Below are positions 57,031-64,000 of a stretch of DNA of 64,000 bases, one piece after another (position 1 is the stretch's first letter; the number at the start of each line of letters is the position of its first letter). Both the position numbers and the translations under genes were made by a program. The notes beneath the pieces were generated by a model. The model saw only the letters and a list, made by a program, of their open reading frames with translations, made no database searches and was not told where the DNA came from. The DNA is taken from contig PLWV01000008.1 of assembly GCA_003153155.1 (NCBI GenBank), positions 69,436 through 133,435 on the forward strand. The letters are read 5' to 3'. This DNA comes from Gallionella sp. GTDB taxonomy: Bacteria > Pseudomonadota > Gammaproteobacteria > Burkholderiales > Gallionellaceae.

Positions 57031-57316
57031 ATCCACTCGCTATACGCCATTCAGAGCGGCTCGTAACGTATATTGATATTTAACATGGCCCAGGACAGGC
57101 AGTTCCATCGCCATAGTTCGAAGGGCTTCTTCAAGCAGTCGGCTCGGCGGTTTACATCGCTTCTTGCTACCCACCCCCGCCATGCCTCCAGTCCGGCAAT
57201 GTTTGACAAGAGGCGTACTTGACGGGGCGTTATCCCCAATCTTTTGGCCGCTTCTTGTTGGCTGTTCTTGCCTTCTTCCTGCAGGCCTAATACCTGTGCG
57301 CGCCTCGCTTCCTTAT
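57031..57316 (-). pseudogene. Frameshifted ISNCY-type transposase N-terminal remnant
   Basis: Minus-strand reading gives ARRAQVLGLQEEGKNSQQEA then AKRLGITPRQVR, the N-terminal helix-turn-helix of ISNCY/IS1202-like transposases. After that the expected GLASRKRGKPSNR-type segment appears only in another frame (SKKRCKPPSRLLEEAL), so at least one frameshift occurred. No ATG opens the frame and the catalytic domain is absent. Confidence 0.7.
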
Positions 57317-57342
57317 TGACTCACGAACTTGTCCATTTCAAA

Positions 57343-57390
57343 ATGTCCGCCGCTATTTTTAACAAGGGTGACTTGTGTCACCAGCGGACA
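57343..57390. repeat. Possible insertion-sequence end with short inverted repeat
   Basis: TGTCCGC at 57343 and GCGGACA at 57383 are inverse and lie between the transposase remnant and the fnr remnant, the place where the end of the old element should be. Exact boundaries are unknown. Confidence 0.4.
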
Positions 57391-57438
57391 CTATCACTTT
57401 GCGCCATGACCATAAAAAACCCACTTGCTTCATGCACC

Positions 57439-57609
57439 AAATTTAACCTGAGCATGTCGCGCAGCAATATCGGTAATTACCTCGGCATAGCCGAAGAAAC
57501 AGTGTGCCGCATGTTTACTCGTTTCCAGAACGAGGGCCTGCTGGCCACCGAACGGCGACAAGTGCAGTTCCATGATCTGGATTGACTCAGTAACATTGCT
57601 CGCGGCTAG
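57439..57609 (+). pseudogene. Truncated Crp/Fnr-family regulator (C-terminal DNA-binding end only)
   Basis: KFNLSMSRSNIGNYLGIAEE, TVCRMFTRFQNEGLL and VQFHDLD are the helix-turn-helix end of an FNR-like regulator. The cyclic-nucleotide-like domain and the [4Fe-4S] cysteines are missing, replaced by insertion-sequence debris. A TGA at 57583 interrupts HDLD/LSNIARG, beyond which the frame continues to 57609. It is therefore broken at both ends. Confidence 0.8.
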
Positions 57610-58027
57610 CATTCACCTATGCGGTTTCCGAACATTTTAATCGGATACACGGCCGTCAATTAAATGCAGTTTGGTTGATCCATATCAGTGAATGGATGCA
57701 CGTTTCCAGTTAAGTTACGTTGCGTTGTGCTAGGGCCTGAAAAAGTGTATTTTTTTGGCGCAGTTGCTGCGGTGAGTGGGGGGTAGAACGGTCAGCGTAG
57801 GGGGATCATGATTGGAGCCCATTTTCGGATGAGGCGGCATGAAACCGGAAAAGCTGCGGCTCGGCAATGTTGATTGCATGGCTTTAAAGCTGTAACGAAG
57901 GGGGTGTGTTATTTGTCTCGTGGTAGGAGACAAATGACACATTGTTTTCTTAATGCTAATATCAACGGTATCCTTAACAGAATAGGGATTGTTAATTTTA
58001 TAATCATAATTGATCGAGGAGCTGCAA
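57610..58027. other. Gene-poor spacer with a perfect palindrome
   Basis: No convincing gene. ATTTGTCTC-N7-GAGACAAAT (57911-57935) is a perfect 9-bp inverted repeat that could be an operator for the cytochrome cluster to its right. From about here the sequence becomes visibly more AT-rich. Confidence 0.45.
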
Positions 58028-58135
58028 ATGCTTGAATGGCCAGATGTGACAACCAGCGAAGTTATTCTTATGTATGTCTTTATTTTCGTGTTTTTATTTG
58101 GCTTGGCTTTTATTCTGATGAAAAAGAATTCCTGA
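58028..58135 (+). CDS. Small membrane protein, 35 residues
   Basis: An ATG with GAGGAG 8 nt upstream encodes MLEWPDVTTSEVILMYVFI then a continued hydrophobic stretch ending LMKKNS: a single helix with a basic inside end. Size and position before cytochrome genes recall small CcoQ-like subunits, but there is no sequence proof. Probably first gene of the cytochrome cluster. Confidence 0.65.
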   Translation: MLEWPDVTTSEVILMYVFIFVFLFGLAFILMKKNS

Positions 58136-58218
58136 TTTGCTTGTCCAGCGAAGGAACGCGATAGCGTTGACCTGCACTAAATGCAGGTAATTAAAAATTT
58201 TAGAATGGGGAGGGGTAC

Positions 58219-58986
58219 ATGCGTAAATTATCCAATTTGGCAATGGTGTGTTGGGGAGCGGTCGCCATGCTGGCTTTTTCAGGTGCAAGTTTTGCTGACG
58301 AAGGTGCCGTAACGGCGAATATCACCAATGGGAAGAATATCTTCGAAAATGGCAAACCGGATGCGGGCATTCCTGCTTGCTCTGTTTGCCACAGCGACAA
58401 TGCGATGGGCAATGATGCGATGGGCTCACCCAGGCTTGCTAATATTGGATATGTATTCATCGTCAAGCAATTGACCAATTACGCAGAAGATAAGCGTAAA
58501 GATCTGACCATGGATCAGATGAATGGTATTGCAAAAGGACTGAGTGTTCAGGACCGGCGGGATCTGGCTGCATATGAGAACAGCTTCCCAAGGGCTGCTG
58601 ACCTTTCTGATCTCAGCGCGCTTAAAGCCGACGGTAAAACGATAGGAGAGGCCTACAAAGGTCAGATTCTTGTTCGCTATGGGGTGGAGGGTAAGGTTTC
58701 TGCGTGTATGTCTTGTCATGGCTTTAATGGCCGTGGTGCCGATCCAATTTATCCGAAGATTGGTCAGCAGAAATATGTATATCTGGTCAATCAGTTGACG
58801 CATTGGCGTGATGGTTCTCGTGCAAATGATCCGATGGGACAGATGCAGGCGATTGCTAAGAATTTGTCCGATGAAGATATAAATAATGCCGCAACCTTCT
58901 TGTCACAAGCAGCCGATAGTACGGCAGGAGACGGGATGGAAATTGAAAATAAGTCGGTTTTGAAAAACGTTAAGATCGTTCGATAA
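58219..58986 (+). CDS. Dihaem cytochrome c4-type protein
   Basis: A 255-residue periplasmic cytochrome: signal peptide ending SFA, haem 1 at C54-SV-C57-H58 and haem 2 at C163-MS-C166-H167, each in a homologous half with a downstream Met (AMGSPRLANIG; PMGQMQAIAKNL). Cytochromes c4 pass electrons to terminal oxidases. GGGGAGGGG precedes the ATG. An intrinsic terminator follows, so the next genes may have their own promoter. Confidence 0.88.
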   Translation: MRKLSNLAMVCWGAVAMLAFSGASFADEGAVTANITNGKNIFENGKPDAGIPACSVCHSDNAMGNDAMGSPRLANIGYVFIVKQLTNYAEDKRKDLTMDQMNGIAKGLSVQDRRDLAAYENSFPRAADLSDLSALKADGKTIGEAYKGQILVRYGVEGKVSACMSCHGFNGRGADPIYPKIGQQKYVYLVNQLTHWRDGSRANDPMGQMQAIAKNLSDEDINNAATFLSQAADSTAGDGMEIENKSVLKNVKIVR

Positions 58987-59048
58987 AGTTTTCTTCGATA
59001 TTTTTGTGTGTTCCCGCGCCGAGTGTTTTGGTGCGGGAAGTCTAATGG

Positions 59049-59076
59049 AGACTGGTCTGTTGATCAGTCTTTTTTT
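59049..59076 (+). terminator. Intrinsic terminator after the cytochrome c4 gene
   Basis: AGACTG...CAGTCT (6-bp stem, 10-nt loop) followed by six T residues. A second GC-rich hairpin (TTCCCGCGCC / GGTGCGGGAA) lies just upstream at about 59011-59040. Confidence 0.8.
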
Positions 59077-59145
59077 GCTTTGTGAGTCGCTGATGAAATA
59101 CGGCAACTCTACATGAGCTTTATGCTGGATCAGGATTGGTGATAG

Positions 59146-59727
59146 ATGAAAAAGGGAGAAAAGATCGTTTTTGGGATAATTGCGCTGCTCGTGCTTATTA
59201 CAGTGGTTAACTTTACTGTACTGGAATCGGTTAGGCATAACAGTGATAAACCGATGTATCCTATTTTGACGCATTTCGATTTTTCAGTTGATGGGTTGCG
59301 TGGTTATCAGCTATATCAGCAAAGCAATTGTTACTCTTGTCATAGAGCTGTTGGTAACGGGACTAGCATGGGCCTGAGTCTGGATGGGCTAGGTTCGAAG
59401 CATGATGTCAACTATTTCTACAGTTTTCTCAAACAGCCGGAACAGACGTATGGCGCGAAGACTATGGACCATGGTGCTCCGCCCAAGGATGCGGCTTATG
59501 TATCAGCTCTTCCAGATCCGGATTTACGTGTCATGGCAATTTTTCTATCCGAACTAAAAGCTGATCAAGGATCATCTTCATCATTCGAGCCACCCAAAGG
59601 CGAATCAAGTTTTATCAACGCCATGCTTGACATGTGGGCACCGGACGGTTGGCGAAGTCAGTACAAGGATATTCGCGATTGGATGAAATCAAATCCACAA
59701 GAGGGGCAGCATGACGGAAAGCATTGA
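59146..59727 (+). CDS. Membrane-anchored monohaem cytochrome c
   Basis: A 193-residue protein: N-terminal helix about 7-24 as uncleaved anchor, then a periplasmic domain with haem at C62-YS-C65-H66 in GYQLYQQSNCYSCH. The form is like NorC or CcoO, the cytochrome subunits of nitric oxide reductases and cbb3 oxidases, but shorter than CcoO. It overlaps by 17 nt the gene for a CcoN/NorB-like mini protein, implying the two products work together. Confidence 0.85.
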   Translation: MKKGEKIVFGIIALLVLITVVNFTVLESVRHNSDKPMYPILTHFDFSVDGLRGYQLYQQSNCYSCHRAVGNGTSMGLSLDGLGSKHDVNYFYSFLKQPEQTYGAKTMDHGAPPKDAAYVSALPDPDLRVMAIFLSELKADQGSSSSFEPPKGESSFINAMLDMWAPDGWRSQYKDIRDWMKSNPQEGQHDGKH

Positions 59728-60226
59728 GCATAGCGCATCACAGAGTAAGGATTTCACCATGTACATTTTATGGTTTGTATATGCGTGCATAATTTACAGC
59801 ATCATCGGTTTCTCTTGGGGCGCAATTATGGGCGGTGTTCCAGCCTTCCGGCATTTTGTGGATTATAGCCCGCATGGACGTTTAATTACCTTGGCGCATG
59901 GGCACATCAATTTGCTGGGCTGGGTTGAGATGGCGATATTTGCTGCTTTATACTATGCAGTTCCCACGGTTGCCCGTCGACCGATCTACAGTGTGCGCCT
60001 GGTGAAGATCCATTTTTGGATGCATAACTTCGGGCTGATCGGGATGGTAGTGTTTTTCCTCGTTGCCGGGCTACTCGGGGGGCTGGGTACGGGCGAAGAT
60101 ACCGAAAAATTGGTCAGTCACTTACTTGCTTTTGTCGGCATATTTGGAACGCTAGTGCTGTCGGCAAATATCATCTGGGGCTATAACTTATATAAAACTA
60201 CGATTGGGTGGCAAAAGCGGATATGA
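59711..60226 (+). CDS. Miniature CcoN/NorB-like membrane protein
   Basis: A 171-residue, four-helix protein. LAHGHINLLGWVEMAIFAAL with His63 and His65 matches the helix X motif (two haem ligands) of cbb3 oxidase/NO reductase subunit I, followed by YSVRLVKIHFWMHNFGLIG, the helix XI region. The other subunit I helices, including all CuB or FeB ligands, are absent. It may bind haem b but cannot be a standard oxidase by itself. GAGGGGCAGC precedes the ATG. Its stop overlaps the next start as ATGA. Confidence 0.78.
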   Translation: MTESIEHSASQSKDFTMYILWFVYACIIYSIIGFSWGAIMGGVPAFRHFVDYSPHGRLITLAHGHINLLGWVEMAIFAALYYAVPTVARRPIYSVRLVKIHFWMHNFGLIGMVVFFLVAGLLGGLGTGEDTEKLVSHLLAFVGIFGTLVLSANIIWGYNLYKTTIGWQKRI

Positions 60227-60720
60227 ACAAACGACCGTTTCTGTCGGCCTGTTGCGGGATTGTTCTGTTGTGCTTGACGGGGGGGTGCGAGCAGAGATTA
60301 TCTGCGGGCTTCGCGGTAGGCGCGCGCGCTCCAAGTTTGCCCACTAAGACTTTGGCGGATGTAGGGGGTAACTTCAGTAAAGTTACCACTTATCGGCAGC
60401 CGGATCCTCGCATGTATCAGTATTCGGTTGATAAGGCTTTATTAACCGGCAAGCCGATTGTGTTGGAATTTGCAACTCCCGGACATTGCACTAATTGTGA
60501 CGAGCAACTCCAAATGCTTAAAGCAATCCTGGATAAGTATCAGGGTCAGATGATATTTATCCACATAGATCAGTATGAGAACCCGCAAGCATATAAAGCC
60601 TATCAGGTCATGGGCGACCCTTGGACGTTTATCATCGACAAGAATGGTATTGTGCACTTTGAACGCGCGGGTCGAATGTTATACGGAGAATTAGACGAGG
60701 CAATCAAACAGATTTTGTGA
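60223..60720 (+). CDS. Thioredoxin-fold lipoprotein (TlpA/SCO-like)
   Basis: A 165-residue protein with a lipoprotein signal (LTGGC, Cys22) and a periplasmic thioredoxin fold whose active site is C89-TN-C92 in ATPGHCTNCDEQ, with cis-Pro in MGDPWTFII. It could reduce haem-site cysteines or deliver copper during cytochrome or oxidase assembly. The ATG at 60223 overlaps the previous stop. Confidence 0.82.
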   Translation: MNKRPFLSACCGIVLLCLTGGCEQRLSAGFAVGARAPSLPTKTLADVGGNFSKVTTYRQPDPRMYQYSVDKALLTGKPIVLEFATPGHCTNCDEQLQMLKAILDKYQGQMIFIHIDQYENPQAYKAYQVMGDPWTFIIDKNGIVHFERAGRMLYGELDEAIKQIL

Positions 60721-60785
60721 GGCGTTGAGCCGATCTTGATCACGGCAGTAAATTGAAAACAAAAAAGTGGGTGGGTGACAGGATA

Positions 60786-61259
60786 ATGGCGGATAGGCAT
60801 ATGGCAGAGACGATGCGATTTGAGCTCATGCAGGATCGCAAAGGCATGGTATGGGATTTGTTGCTTTATATTCCAACGGTGATAGCTCTTGGCTCTATAG
60901 CTGCCAGTTTTTGGTATGGCGATGATCACAACATGGGCTATTTATTTTTTTTCCTAACCTGTTTCTTTTTTATTGCCGGGTTTAATCGCGTATTTAAAAC
61001 ACGGTTGATGCTTTTGCCATCGGCACCGGTATGTCTTAAAGTGGGCGAGCAAAGTCTTGGCTTGGTGCAAAGAAACGGTGCTCAAGTGGATTTGGTGAAA
61101 AACCTTCGCTACTACTCCGATTATGCGGGTAAGTCTTTTGGCATTTCTGGCTTGGATGGCGCAGGAAAACAATTACAATTTGTATTTCACAGCGGGCAGT
61201 TTGCAACTGTAGATCAATACCACTCTGCTCAAGAGATTTTGAAACGCCACCTCAAATAA
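60786..61259 (+). CDS. Two-helix membrane protein with PH-like C-terminal domain, unknown
   Basis: A 157-residue protein: N-terminal basic stretch, two adjacent helices (about 22-60), then a beta-rich domain (LGLVQRNGAQVDLVKNLRYY, GKQLQFVFHSGQF) of the bacterial-PH type. Starts at 60753 (TTG), 60786 or 60801 are possible; 60786 has AGGATA just upstream. No recognised function; it follows the thioredoxin gene in the same direction. Confidence 0.6.
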   Translation: MADRHMAETMRFELMQDRKGMVWDLLLYIPTVIALGSIAASFWYGDDHNMGYLFFFLTCFFFIAGFNRVFKTRLMLLPSAPVCLKVGEQSLGLVQRNGAQVDLVKNLRYYSDYAGKSFGISGLDGAGKQLQFVFHSGQFATVDQYHSAQEILKRHLK

Positions 61260-61289
61260 AAGCGGGCTCTTCTTCACAAGCAGATACCG

Positions 61290-61499
61290 CTACTTCCTTC
61301 CCGAGCGTCTTTGAATGACATCCCATGTCATGTAACCAATGACACCGACAATAATTAAGCAAACTATAGCGATAAGCTGGTACTCAGCTTCCGGGCTGAC
61401 CAATCCGCCTATGAACATATGCACCGCATAGCCCGTTATGAACAGAGAGCTGATCGCGATAACCACATAAATCAATATCTCGCCTATCATGCTATGCAC
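61290..61499 (-). CDS. Small two-helix membrane protein
   Basis: A 69-residue protein with two hydrophobic helices (about 5-30 and 40-60) and a basic tail. It begins at GTG 61499, immediately after the stop of the larger membrane protein, or at ATG 61490. Unknown function; translationally linked to the upstream gene. Confidence 0.6.
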   Translation of the reverse strand: MHSMIGEILIYVVIAISSLFITGYAVHMFIGGLVSPEAEYQLIAIVCLIIVGVIGYMTWDVIQRRSGRK

Positions 61500-62942
61500 T
61501 CACTGTTTTTGCGCAAATGGGGATTCCTTGATTTCAACGATTACTCCCCCTTGTTGCAAGGCGACGGTCTCGACTTTCCTCGCATCCATTAAAGCAAGAT
61601 TGTGAGAGAGCGAGCTATTCACAGGATCTCGCGGGTCGAATATCAGATAATTGACGCCCCGCAACATCGCGAACAGAGCTTGTTCATCCTTGGCGCTGGG
61701 TGGCAATGGCAAAGTGTCACACTGGCAAGCTAACATGGTTCGTGCCGGCCATTGACTTGCTATGCGAAACGGTTTTTCGGTGGGTGAATTTTGCTTATGC
61801 TCATCCTTTGAAAAACTCTCGATATTCTCGACCAAAGCTTTGATCAAGTTGTCGCGTGGTGCAAGCTTGCCCTCCAACACTTTTTGATAACGCGCCTTGT
61901 CAATAGTCATGAATGTTGTAGAAATAACGACGGTCAGCAACAATACCACTCCGCGCTGTCCCCAAAACCCGCCATGCGAACTGGTTCGTTTCTGCAACAA
62001 TAAAGGTAAGCCCCAGTACAAACAAGTCGTCAGTGCAACCATGCTAAAAATTTCATCACCGGTTAGCACACCAATGATGAGTGCGACCAAAAGAATACGC
62101 CCTAGTAAATCCGCCCATAAATTGCTCGCTTGCTTCCAAATAACCAATAGCAGGATAAATAGCATCCCGATCCCGGTAATCCAGCGGAAAGCTCCAATCT
62201 CATCACTATCTGCCGATCCCAAGAGCAGACTTGACAAGCCCTTAATCGGGTTCGTAAACCACTCTACATGACTCCATCCCAAGGTCAATACTAGGGCCAA
62301 CAAAACTGTAAAAACAATTCCACCAAAAAAATAATTTCGGTGTTTTGTGTTAAGTGGGGTTCTATACCATGTCCACAACAAAGCCAACGGGTATGCGAGA
62401 CCCGCCGGGTGGAGAGTGATGCTCACTAGACATAAAAACAGTTGAGCAAAATACATTCCTCCGAATGCTTGTGGCGATTCACGGTACATTTGATCTGACC
62501 AAGCACCAAGCGCAAATGTAATGAGCAGGTATGGCGCGACAGAAATAGTGTCGATTTGATCCAATACCAGCGGAGAGATCAACAACAATCCGGTCGCTAA
62601 TAGCGCGCCTTCAGAATCTCCGCTGCGCTGCCGCCATGCGTGGAATGCCCACGCCGCACCTGACATCACAAAAATTGTAGCTATCTTTGCAGCAAGCACA
62701 TTACCTGTCCATAAAAAGCCGACAGGGGCGAGAAATACCGCGCGAAAATCGGGGAGTCCCAAGGTTACAATCGGACTGACGACATTATCTGCTACCGACC
62801 ATGCCAGCAATAATGCCTGAGCTGCACCCTCATCAATCCCATATGATGTTTTGTGCAACAACATGAAGCTGAGGGCACCCCAAAGCGACAGCGCGAGATA
62901 AGCCCAATATTTTTGGGGGATTCGTAATAACCAATTGTTCAT
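61500..62942 (-). CDS. Polytopic membrane protein, possibly glycosyltransferase-39-like
   Basis: A 480-residue protein with about ten or more helices to residue 350 and a soluble C-terminal domain. Asp/Glu in the first outer loop (YGIDEGAAQALLLAW) and the general layout recall lipid-linked sugar transferases (ArnT/PMT type), but no decisive motif is present. It runs against the cytochrome genes around it. Confidence 0.55.
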   Translation of the reverse strand: MNNWLLRIPQKYWAYLALSLWGALSFMLLHKTSYGIDEGAAQALLLAWSVADNVVSPIVTLGLPDFRAVFLAPVGFLWTGNVLAAKIATIFVMSGAAWAFHAWRQRSGDSEGALLATGLLLISPLVLDQIDTISVAPYLLITFALGAWSDQMYRESPQAFGGMYFAQLFLCLVSITLHPAGLAYPLALLWTWYRTPLNTKHRNYFFGGIVFTVLLALVLTLGWSHVEWFTNPIKGLSSLLLGSADSDEIGAFRWITGIGMLFILLLVIWKQASNLWADLLGRILLVALIIGVLTGDEIFSMVALTTCLYWGLPLLLQKRTSSHGGFWGQRGVVLLLTVVISTTFMTIDKARYQKVLEGKLAPRDNLIKALVENIESFSKDEHKQNSPTEKPFRIASQWPARTMLACQCDTLPLPPSAKDEQALFAMLRGVNYLIFDPRDPVNSSLSHNLALMDARKVETVALQQGGVIVEIKESPFAQKQ

Positions 62943-63396
62943 TTTAGAGTTAGTCTTTCATGGAAATGTATGCCAATTTTAAAAATAGTACATCGCACCC
63001 GACACCGCTGTCATTGAATTGATTTGCAACGATTGAGTGGATTACAGATGAAAGTAATACGGTGATAAGAGGTTACCTCTGTTCTACAGATATGCAGCAC
63101 AGCTCTCACAGATGCCAGTTTCTGTTGGCAAGCCAAATTAGGAGACAAGCGGACGAGCGATTGAACCCAGCTCAATAACCTTAAACCCACATCTTGGACG
63201 ATTTTATCAGGAAGTGAACCATGGCAGCAATATTATGTATGCGGCCAATACATAAAGCACCGTGGCGCATTGACCGCATATTAAAGAGTTGCACGAGAAG
63301 AAAGATTCCGCTAGACTGGCACCTAGTAGTAGGTAGTGGGCGTGTTGTCCTTATGCCTTTTTTGATAAGTCGCGTAACAAAACGGAGGGGTGTGCT
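62943..63396. other. Spacer with one doubtful 64-codon frame
   Basis: A frame from 63221 to 63415 has AGGAAG before its ATG, but its Arg/Lys-rich sequence has no recognised features and it overlaps the well-supported small gene at 63397. Otherwise nothing seen. Confidence 0.4.
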
Positions 63397-63507
63397 ATGC
63401 CAATCGAACTTCTAGTGCCAATTACAATTTTTGTGTTGGGAATCGTGGTTTCTGTAAGTCTATCCAGTTTAGGAATTGAACGTATCGTCGAAGGAAATAA
63501 GAAGTAA
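63397..63507 (+). CDS. Small membrane protein, 36 residues
   Basis: An ATG with CGGAGGGG 6 nt upstream encodes MPIELLVPITIFVLGIVVSV, then a short polar tail IERIVEGNKK: one helix with a basic end, as in the 35-residue protein at 58028. It lies before another CcoN/NorB-like gene, so a role as a small subunit is possible (inference). Confidence 0.65.
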   Translation: MPIELLVPITIFVLGIVVSVSLSSLGIERIVEGNKK

Positions 63508-63547
63508 TTAAAATCCACATTACGATTAAGTCCGCATCAGAAAGTGT

Positions 63548-63567
63548 CCGGCAATTGCCGGGCATTT
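63548..63567 (+). terminator. Probable terminator after the 36-residue gene
   Basis: CCGGC-AATT-GCCGG hairpin followed by GCATTTTCC, about 40 nt after the stop codon. Confidence 0.55.
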
Positions 63568-63667
63568 TCCTTTGTGGTGTCGTGTAAACACGGTTATTTT
63601 CTGTCAGTCGTCTTAATCGGTTAATCCTGCCTCATCCAGCAACCCGCATATTGTATCCTCCCGCCTT

Positions 63668-64000
63668 ATGAGACCAGATTCTCTGCATCGACACCTGCTA
63701 AAATTTCTGCTGCTATCTGCTCTTTCATTTTTTATCGGCGCCATTCACGGCATGCTTCAGGTCATGCCTCCGATTCGCGCATGGCTGGATTCGATTGGCA
63801 GCCCTTATGGCGGTCCAGGACATATGATTGACCCGTTGGCTCATGCTCATATGAATTTGGTTGGCGGGGTGGTATTACTGGCTATGGGCGTAACTTTTTA
63901 TCTACTCCCGATTTTCGCACAGAAGAAAATTTATTCTGTAAAATTAGTTGGCCATACCTTTTGGTGGGTCAGCATAGGGGTTTATAGTTTCTACATCATA
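63668..64000 (+). CDS. CcoN/NorB-like membrane protein, 3' end outside window
   Basis: The first 111 codons of a membrane protein: helix about 12-30, a loop, then LAHAHMNLVGGVVLLAMGVT with His59 and His61, the same helix X-like haem motif as in the 59711 gene, and IYSVKLVGHTFWWVSIG. Starting directly with this region suggests another shortened haem-copper oxidase-like protein. The ribosome site is weak, so the start may change. Confidence 0.65.
   Translation, partial: MRPDSLHRHLLKFLLLSALSFFIGAIHGMLQVMPPIRAWLDSIGSPYGGPGHMIDPLAHAHMNLVGGVVLLAMGVTFYLLPIFAQKKIYSVKLVGHTFWWVSIGVYSFYII

Follow-up and report, generated by a model that had tools for sequence, protein, structure and literature searches.

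Closest described systems

The locus described here was compared with the cbb3-type (C-family) oxygen reductases, represented by the CcoN/CcoO structures PDB 9g6b and 3mk7, and with their 'distal' form in iron oxidisers (Ducluzeau 2008, as cited in passages of PMC7029218, PMC8788666 and PMC10734462). In the passages considered, both cbb3 forms were reported across Zetaproteobacteria and Gallionellaceae (PMC7029218, PMC10734462), and S. lithotrophicus ES-1 was described as carrying proximal and distal cbb3 clusters, the distal ccoNO being expressed about 3-fold higher and up on thiosulfate and the proximal one up on Fe(II)-citrate (PMC8788666). The same excerpt associates Cyc1 (Slit_2657) with a cbb3 cluster, and an excerpt of PMC12016527 places Slit_2657 above the 95th percentile of the proteome. 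Excerpts of two further papers describe ccoNO without subunit III in Ferrovum JA12 (PMC4725956) and the absence of Cyc1 from Ferriphaselus OYT1 and R-1 and Gallionella ES-2 (PMC4643136). The c4 Cyc1 region of Tenderia, according to passages of PMC5371394, is syntenic with that of M. ferrooxydans and its expression is high and not differential; the regions also contain a polyferredoxin and three hypothetical proteins, and the three hypothetical ones were expressed more strongly at 310 mV. In the passages considered, 'Cyc1 to cbb3' is how the downhill part of neutrophilic iron oxidation is drawn.

The cluster was found to share with the CcoN/CcoO of known structure all metal and haem ligands, the helix-VII tyrosine and a FixO-type CcoO, whereas, compared with canonical CcoNOP, it contains no CcoP in 34 kb and adds two one-arc CcoN homologues (mini1 and mini2, the minis) and two monohaem anchored cytochromes. 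With the 'distal' cbb3, as portrayed in those passages, it has part of its host range in common, and in both a ccoNO exists in addition to a canonical cbb3, no subunit III is found and c-type cytochromes are co-located; the same passages make no mention of one-arc CcoN homologues or of thioredoxin-like or membrane partners. Nor were one-arc CcoN homologues mentioned in the passages of other articles covered by the literature search. By its organisms and its missing CcoP, the cluster oxidase is most likely the 'distal' cbb3, in which case the thiosulfate response of that form argues against a strictly iron-specific role. The dihaem c4 of the cluster is probably the Cyc1 of iron oxidisers, as matched by description and not by sequence from passages of PMC5371394 and PMC8788666. 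The Mariprofundus/Tenderia Cyc1 region in the passages of PMC5371394, with its dihaem c4, polyferredoxin and three hypothetical proteins, recalls the ccoG-fixH-d129-mini2 genes found here, and the polyferredoxin and hypotheticals may be the same proteins, again by description and not by sequence. Identity with the iron-responsive ircABCD cluster, compared without sequences from passages of PMC12442390, was set aside. The cNOR (NorC/NorB) resembles the locus in having an anchored monohaem cytochrome that adjoins a haem-copper-fold protein; mini1, in contrast to NorB, is one third of the size and is without the rest of the core with its non-haem metal ligands.

The reading favoured as a whole, with a probability of about 0.6, is that the genes form the left part of an ~18-kb cluster for a CcoP-less cbb3-type oxygen reductase, in which the minis would be dedicated accessory subunits of CcoNO, cytA/mini1 and mini2 feeding electrons from c4/Cyc1 into it.

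Gene content of the cluster

The window, that is, the whole stretch of 64,000 nucleotides that was analysed, corresponds to C26:69436-133435 within a 2.75-Mb genome. Its right end was found to contain the following features, and every item listed in the initial annotation (peptides, c4, cytochrome, minis, lipoprotein and membrane proteins) was present in the sequence.

58028..58135, + strand: pep35, a 35-aa single-helix membrane peptide (open reading frame)
58219..58986, + strand: dihaem c4-type cytochrome (PF00034, 8.2e-15; CxxCH at 54 and 163)
59146..59727, + strand: cytA, a membrane-anchored monohaem cytochrome c (PF00034, 5.2e-6; one CxxCH; N-terminal helix)
59711..60226, + strand: mini1, a 171-aa predicted four-helix arc of the haem-copper oxidase fold (PF00115)
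60223..60720, + strand: thioredoxin-like CxxC lipoprotein (PF00085, 1.1e-5; lipoprotein by eye)
60786..61259, + strand: mem157, a 157-aa membrane protein with two predicted helices
61290..61499, - strand: 69-aa membrane protein with two predicted helices
61500..62942, - strand: 480-aa polytopic membrane protein, GT-C-like by appearance only
63397..63507, + strand: pep36, a 36-aa single-helix membrane peptide (open reading frame)
63668..64000, window-equivalent end 64198, + strand: mini2, a second predicted one-arc haem-copper-like protein (176 aa)

The cytA and mini1 genes share 17 nt in the window copy. No match to mem157 was found in Pfam or NCBIfam, and no Pfam family matched the 480-aa protein above cut-off. 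The GC content was 45.7% in 57911-64000 versus 54.9% in window positions 1-57900, as the initial annotation had indicated in calling the cluster AT-rich, and 47.4% in L009:1346-20000, which lies beyond the window. By reading L009, mini2, which runs past the window end, was completed. On the opposite strand past mini2 were found d129, a 143-aa two-helix protein, a polyferredoxin, a spermidine-synthase-domain membrane protein and a three-helix protein, followed by an FGE-domain protein, a membrane protein, a second anchored monohaem cytochrome, FixS- and FixP_N-like proteins, CcoO and a 468-aa CcoN. The polyferredoxin matches Fer4_5 and Fer4_18 and by reading only is taken for CcoG; the 143-aa protein, by reading only and without a family match, appears FixH-like. 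The FixS- and FixP_N-like matches were weak and below cut-off (0.011 and 0.033, respectively), the latter belonging to d215, which contains no CxxCH.

Two of the proteins outside the window carry further domains. A spermidine-synthase-like domain (9.1e-6) was found in an 882-aa membrane protein, which is encoded at L009:9865-12513(-), adjoining the polyferredoxin gene, and is present at 22 of 80 loci (the best 80 of 216 mini1 relatives). A protein with an FGE-sulfatase (SUMF) domain (1.4e-52) and, by eye, a hydrophobic N-terminal stretch is encoded at L009:13323-14381(-) and is present at 34 of the same best 80 of 216.

The complete oxidase beyond the window

The 468-aa CcoN-like protein is encoded outside the window, at L009:17899-19305(-). 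It is 32% identical to the canonical CcoN of the genome (on C6), with which its H64, H205, H255, H256, H343, H345 and Y249 align; these we take to be the histidine ligands of haem b, haem b3 and CuB, together with the helix-VII tyrosine. Judged by its sequence, the protein is a complete oxygen-reductase subunit I. Among PDB sequences it is matched best by CcoN 3mk7_A (2.6e-67), and the copies of 14 relatives share 77-91% identity with that of the window genome. The accompanying CcoO is of the FixO type (PF02433, 3.8e-17). Within the 34 kb of L009 and L010, c4 was the sole open reading frame of at least 80 codons with two CxxCH motifs, and therefore no dihaem CcoP was found there. In cNOR, the helix-VI histidine is followed at a distance of four residues by the FeB glutamate. 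At the corresponding distance from H205 the 468-aa protein has Gly209, and it keeps the C-type tyrosine; its identity as an NO reductase was rejected.

Reading the sequence after 64000, as had been suggested beforehand, thus both completed mini2 and brought a full CcoN/CcoO into the neighbourhood. The earlier view that the module is not a classical oxidase holds for the minis, which are without CuB and the twelve-helix core, and does not extend to the module, which continues into a complete CcoN/CcoO.

Fold and motifs of mini1 and mini2

A match to PF00115 was found above the Pfam cut-off for mini1 (3.2e-15) and just under it for mini2 (7.8e-8; 32 bits, cut-off 34.8). Four long transmembrane helices were predicted in each protein, and for both the best alignment to CcoN falls in its C-terminal third. 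Neither contains the twelve-helix core of haem-copper oxidase or NO reductase subunit I; the His of helix VI and the His-His of helix VII, which are the CuB/FeB ligands, are missing and only the arc equivalent to IX-XII is there, in agreement with the absences recorded from the window. The helix X HxH motif was found as H63/H65 in all 80 mini1 (the best 80 of 216 relatives) and as H59/H61 in all 15 mini2 compared with the window copy, and in mini1 the pairs H63/H65 and H101/H105, which sit on two helices, are invariant. The earlier assignment of mini1 to the helix X-XI part of CcoN/NorB is too narrow in that a whole four-helix arc is predicted. Each mini is predicted to be a single four-helix arc with the haem-copper fold, and its nearest kin among the arcs is probably the C-terminal one (IX-XII) of CcoN-like proteins. 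The fold comparison consists of a second look with VIA-align at Foldseek's top 1000 chains, among which LTC4 synthase ties with the lowest haem-copper rows.

In a midpoint-rooted arc tree, all six mini2 were found inside the clade spanned by arc III, and the 12 mini1 formed a separate clade; the sequences being short, only 'nearest arc III' is taken from the tree. The mini1 profile matched cNOR NorB 4xyd_A (5.5e-10), best over the first arc of NorB (3-150), which counts against a firm choice of the arc of origin. Residues 24-157 of mini1 weakly matched DUF2871 (PF11070; 8.6e-4); membership was rejected at 20 bits versus a gathering cut-off of 27.4, and canonical CcoN touches DUF2871 too.

In a complete subunit I, haem b and haem b3 are both ligated by histidines of helix X, while haem b takes its second ligand from a different arc, so that an isolated arc must borrow a ligand. 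No helix-II histidine partner is present in mini1, and haem binding would therefore need oligomerisation or another subunit. The missing ligand of the arc may come from a second copy or from mini2, or else no haem may be bound at all.

Intactness of the minis

The minis are intact genes under purifying selection. Between same-genus pairs, dN/dS was 0.033-0.112 for mini1 (dS estimable in 18 of 28 pairs) and 0.028-0.087 for mini2 (8 of 15). In-frame stops were found in 2 of the 45 mini1 matches in the phylum sample and in none of the 34 in the class sample; mini1 was single copy per genome in both samples and 58-89% identical across classes (best 80 of 216 relatives). Decay of the minis from a full subunit I might be suspected from their best alignment to the C-terminal third of CcoN and from the full CcoN lying ~10 kb beyond the window end, which is the situation that the initial annotation had named as counting against a module. 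The full subunit I does exist, but the low dN/dS, the conservation across classes, the single copy and the almost uninterrupted frames rule out degenerate fragments for practical purposes.

At four loci (L074, L098, L099 and L111), mini1 was 60-62% identical to the window copy versus 79-87% for the adjoining thioredoxin-like proteins; these mini1 may have been swapped by recombination.

Conserved neighbourhood

At the best 80 of 216 mini1 relatives, many of them limited by contig ends or by the 10-kb flank, the order cytochrome-mini1-thioredoxin was kept at all 80 loci; with the PF00115 matches and the purifying selection, this puts the observation outside what chance would give. Among these best 80, cytA and the thioredoxin-like protein were each present at 80 loci and mem157 at 79, followed by c4 (74), the 69-aa membrane protein (63) and the 480-aa membrane protein (57), whose place varies and whose association with the module is loose. 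Cluster-type CcoN was found at 42 and mini2 at 14 of the best 80, contig ends and the 10-kb flank being limiting; pep36 was found at 13 of the 14 loci holding mini2. The mini1 start overlaps the cytA gene in 42 of 75 loci and lies within 20 nt of the cytA stop, or overlaps, in 68 of 75, the start being taken as the codon nearest the homologous one and five of the 80 loci being left out. From this arrangement mini1 probably pairs with the anchored monohaem cytA of the adjoining, often overlapping gene.

A helix-bearing small open reading frame, the counterpart of pep35, was found 5′ of c4 at 50 of 73 loci, or 49 of 73 once L096 was set aside as spurious; in windows of the same loci the control means were 1.3 of 73 after shuffling and 5.1 of 73 for random placement. 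By tblastn (E <= 0.05), pep35 matched at 32 of the best 80 of 216, in all 32 just upstream of c4. No Pfam match of pep35 was found, and its single NCBIfam match (0.15) is at chance level.

In all six same-genus genomes read there, mini2 was found beside d129, with the FixH-like and CcoG genes next in three of the six; d129 and then the FixH-like and CcoG genes also follow mini2 at L185, L187 and L188. This placement, together with the polyferredoxin, thioredoxin-like, FGE-domain and small assembly-factor-like proteins of the cluster, would suit a part in assembly, in which the minis retain haem b or direct the packing of helices during the building of CcoN and then leave the enzyme. Such a role is considered rather unlikely, since mini1 travels with electron carriers (c4 and cytA, as counted above among the best 80 of 216) and in many loci a cytochrome c gene overlaps the mini1 gene, an arrangement more in keeping with a redox complex, and since canonical cbb3 is not known to need mini-like proteins for its building.

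Co-occurrence and distribution

In the class sample, mini1 was scored at E <= 1e-30 and cluster-type CcoN at E <= 1e-90. Among its 369 genomes, 34 contained mini1, 32 cluster-type CcoN and 31 both; among the 314 of high quality, the counts were 29, 29 and 28. The phylum sample of 398 genomes contained mini1 in 45, cluster-type CcoN in 42 and both in 39, and when only its 338 genomes with completeness of 90% or more and contamination of 5% or less were counted, mini1 and cluster-type CcoN occurred in the same 25. Neither the co-occurrence counts of the samples nor the Fisher values are corrected for phylogeny, and one family (f225) makes up most of the phylum sample. Its mini1 matches end at 2.9e-76 and the next matches start at 4.2e-20, and its nine discordant genomes are all 57-87% complete. 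Within the genus, mini1 (unit A) was found in 8 of 37 genomes, the source genome counted, and cluster-type CcoN in 7 of those 8.

The presence of mini2 was searched in 65 mini1 genomes (8 same-genus, 33 class and 24 high-quality phylum genomes, 20 lower-quality phylum carriers being left out) and was found in 63, as well as in G095; the misses were G019 and G513, and in G566 the two parts of mini2 lie on separate contigs. All 29 mini2 carriers in a class sample of 303 genomes contained mini1 or cluster-type CcoN. In G337, mini1, mini2 and CcoN lie on one contig at C2:35.7, 122.7 and 369.2 kb, and in G520, from another class, mini1 lies on a different contig than CcoN and mini2; neighbourhood alone is therefore insufficient to account for the link.

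Some genomes depart from this pattern. G019 (95% complete, 160 contigs) contains mini1 only, on an 11.8-kb contig, with neither mini2 nor either CcoN type at 1e-20. Mini1 without cluster-type CcoN was found in the class sample in G136, G251 and G346 (410-780 contigs), of which G251 (97% complete, 410 contigs) also contains mini2. G095 (98% complete) contains a divergent cluster-type CcoN and mini2 and no mini1 at 1e-30, and G513 (93% complete) is without mini2. The further discordant genomes (G136, G346 and the nine of the phylum sample) are less complete or contaminated. Mini1 is therefore not essential to every such oxidase. In G095 (L183:3990-6672), the mini2 relative lies 254 nt from the divergent CcoN gene and overlaps the gene of a 153-aa monohaem cytochrome.

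The invariant histidine pairs on two helices, the mini1 unit of G520 on another contig than CcoN and the mini1 of G019 and G251 without cluster-type CcoN could also be read as signs of a separate haem-b/haem-c complex of mini1 and cytA, for instance a quinone-linked one, one for reverse electron flow or a gas sensor, that only shares the oxidase regulon. That is improbable, and more so than an assembly role, given the close co-occurrence with one CcoN subtype, the absence elsewhere in the samples and a conserved gene set without a sensor, kinase or dehydrogenase gene. The minis very probably belong to the CcoNO oxidase system.

Relatives of mini1 were found in Gallionella, Sideroxydans, Ferrovum/Ferrovaceae, Candidatus Nitrotoga, Mariprofundus and other Zetaproteobacteria, and also in Candidatus Tenderia, Chromatiaceae, Ectothiorhodospiraceae and many other Gammaproteobacteria, the nearest named ones being Gallionella and Sideroxydans MAGs. 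Many of these groups are known for iron or nitrite oxidation or for electrode growth. Mini1 is not a universal trait of iron oxidisers, being missing in 29 of the 37 same-genus genomes; horizontal spread of the cluster is likely, given its lower GC content and the occurrence of mini1 in only 8 of the 37.

Proposed electron transfer

In the favoured reading, electrons arriving from the outer membrane would be carried by the soluble dihaem c4 (Cyc1) and handed to the unit of anchored cytochrome and mini1, which would dock on CcoN/CcoO where CcoP would sit, and CcoNO would reduce O2. The analysis establishes the gene content, a predicted one-arc fold, intact and selected genes, invariant histidines and a close association with cluster-type CcoN; physical binding of the minis to CcoNO, haem b in mini1 and this direction of electron flow are proposals, and a relay role of the minis is less certain than their membership of the oxidase system. 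Of the coherent respiratory module proposed in the initial annotation, the conserved and miniature character stands and electron transfer is the likeliest role, while gas sensing has gained no specific support.

The minis appear to be hitherto undescribed functional components of the system around this oxygen reductase, which is complete but unusual, and the cluster supplies candidates for the missing subunit III. For one such enzyme, the cluster suggests a conserved partner set that is missing from the 'Cyc1 to cbb3' drawings in the passages considered, comprising two one-arc core relatives and, besides them, a monohaem cytochrome with a membrane anchor, a lipoprotein of thioredoxin type and very small helical peptides. 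As predicted one-arc proteins, the minis would be a naturally occurring third of a fold that is central to biology.

Sequences 5′ of the cluster

The open reading frame 57244-57585(+), near hemN, contains a Crp/FNR-type HTH at the C-terminus (PF13545, 4.2e-11) with no sensor-domain match in the same frame, and looks like a truncated fnr. An inverted repeat, possibly a terminator or a regulatory element, with two 15-nt arms (93% complementary) and a 7-nt loop was found at 57905-57941, just 5′ of pep35.
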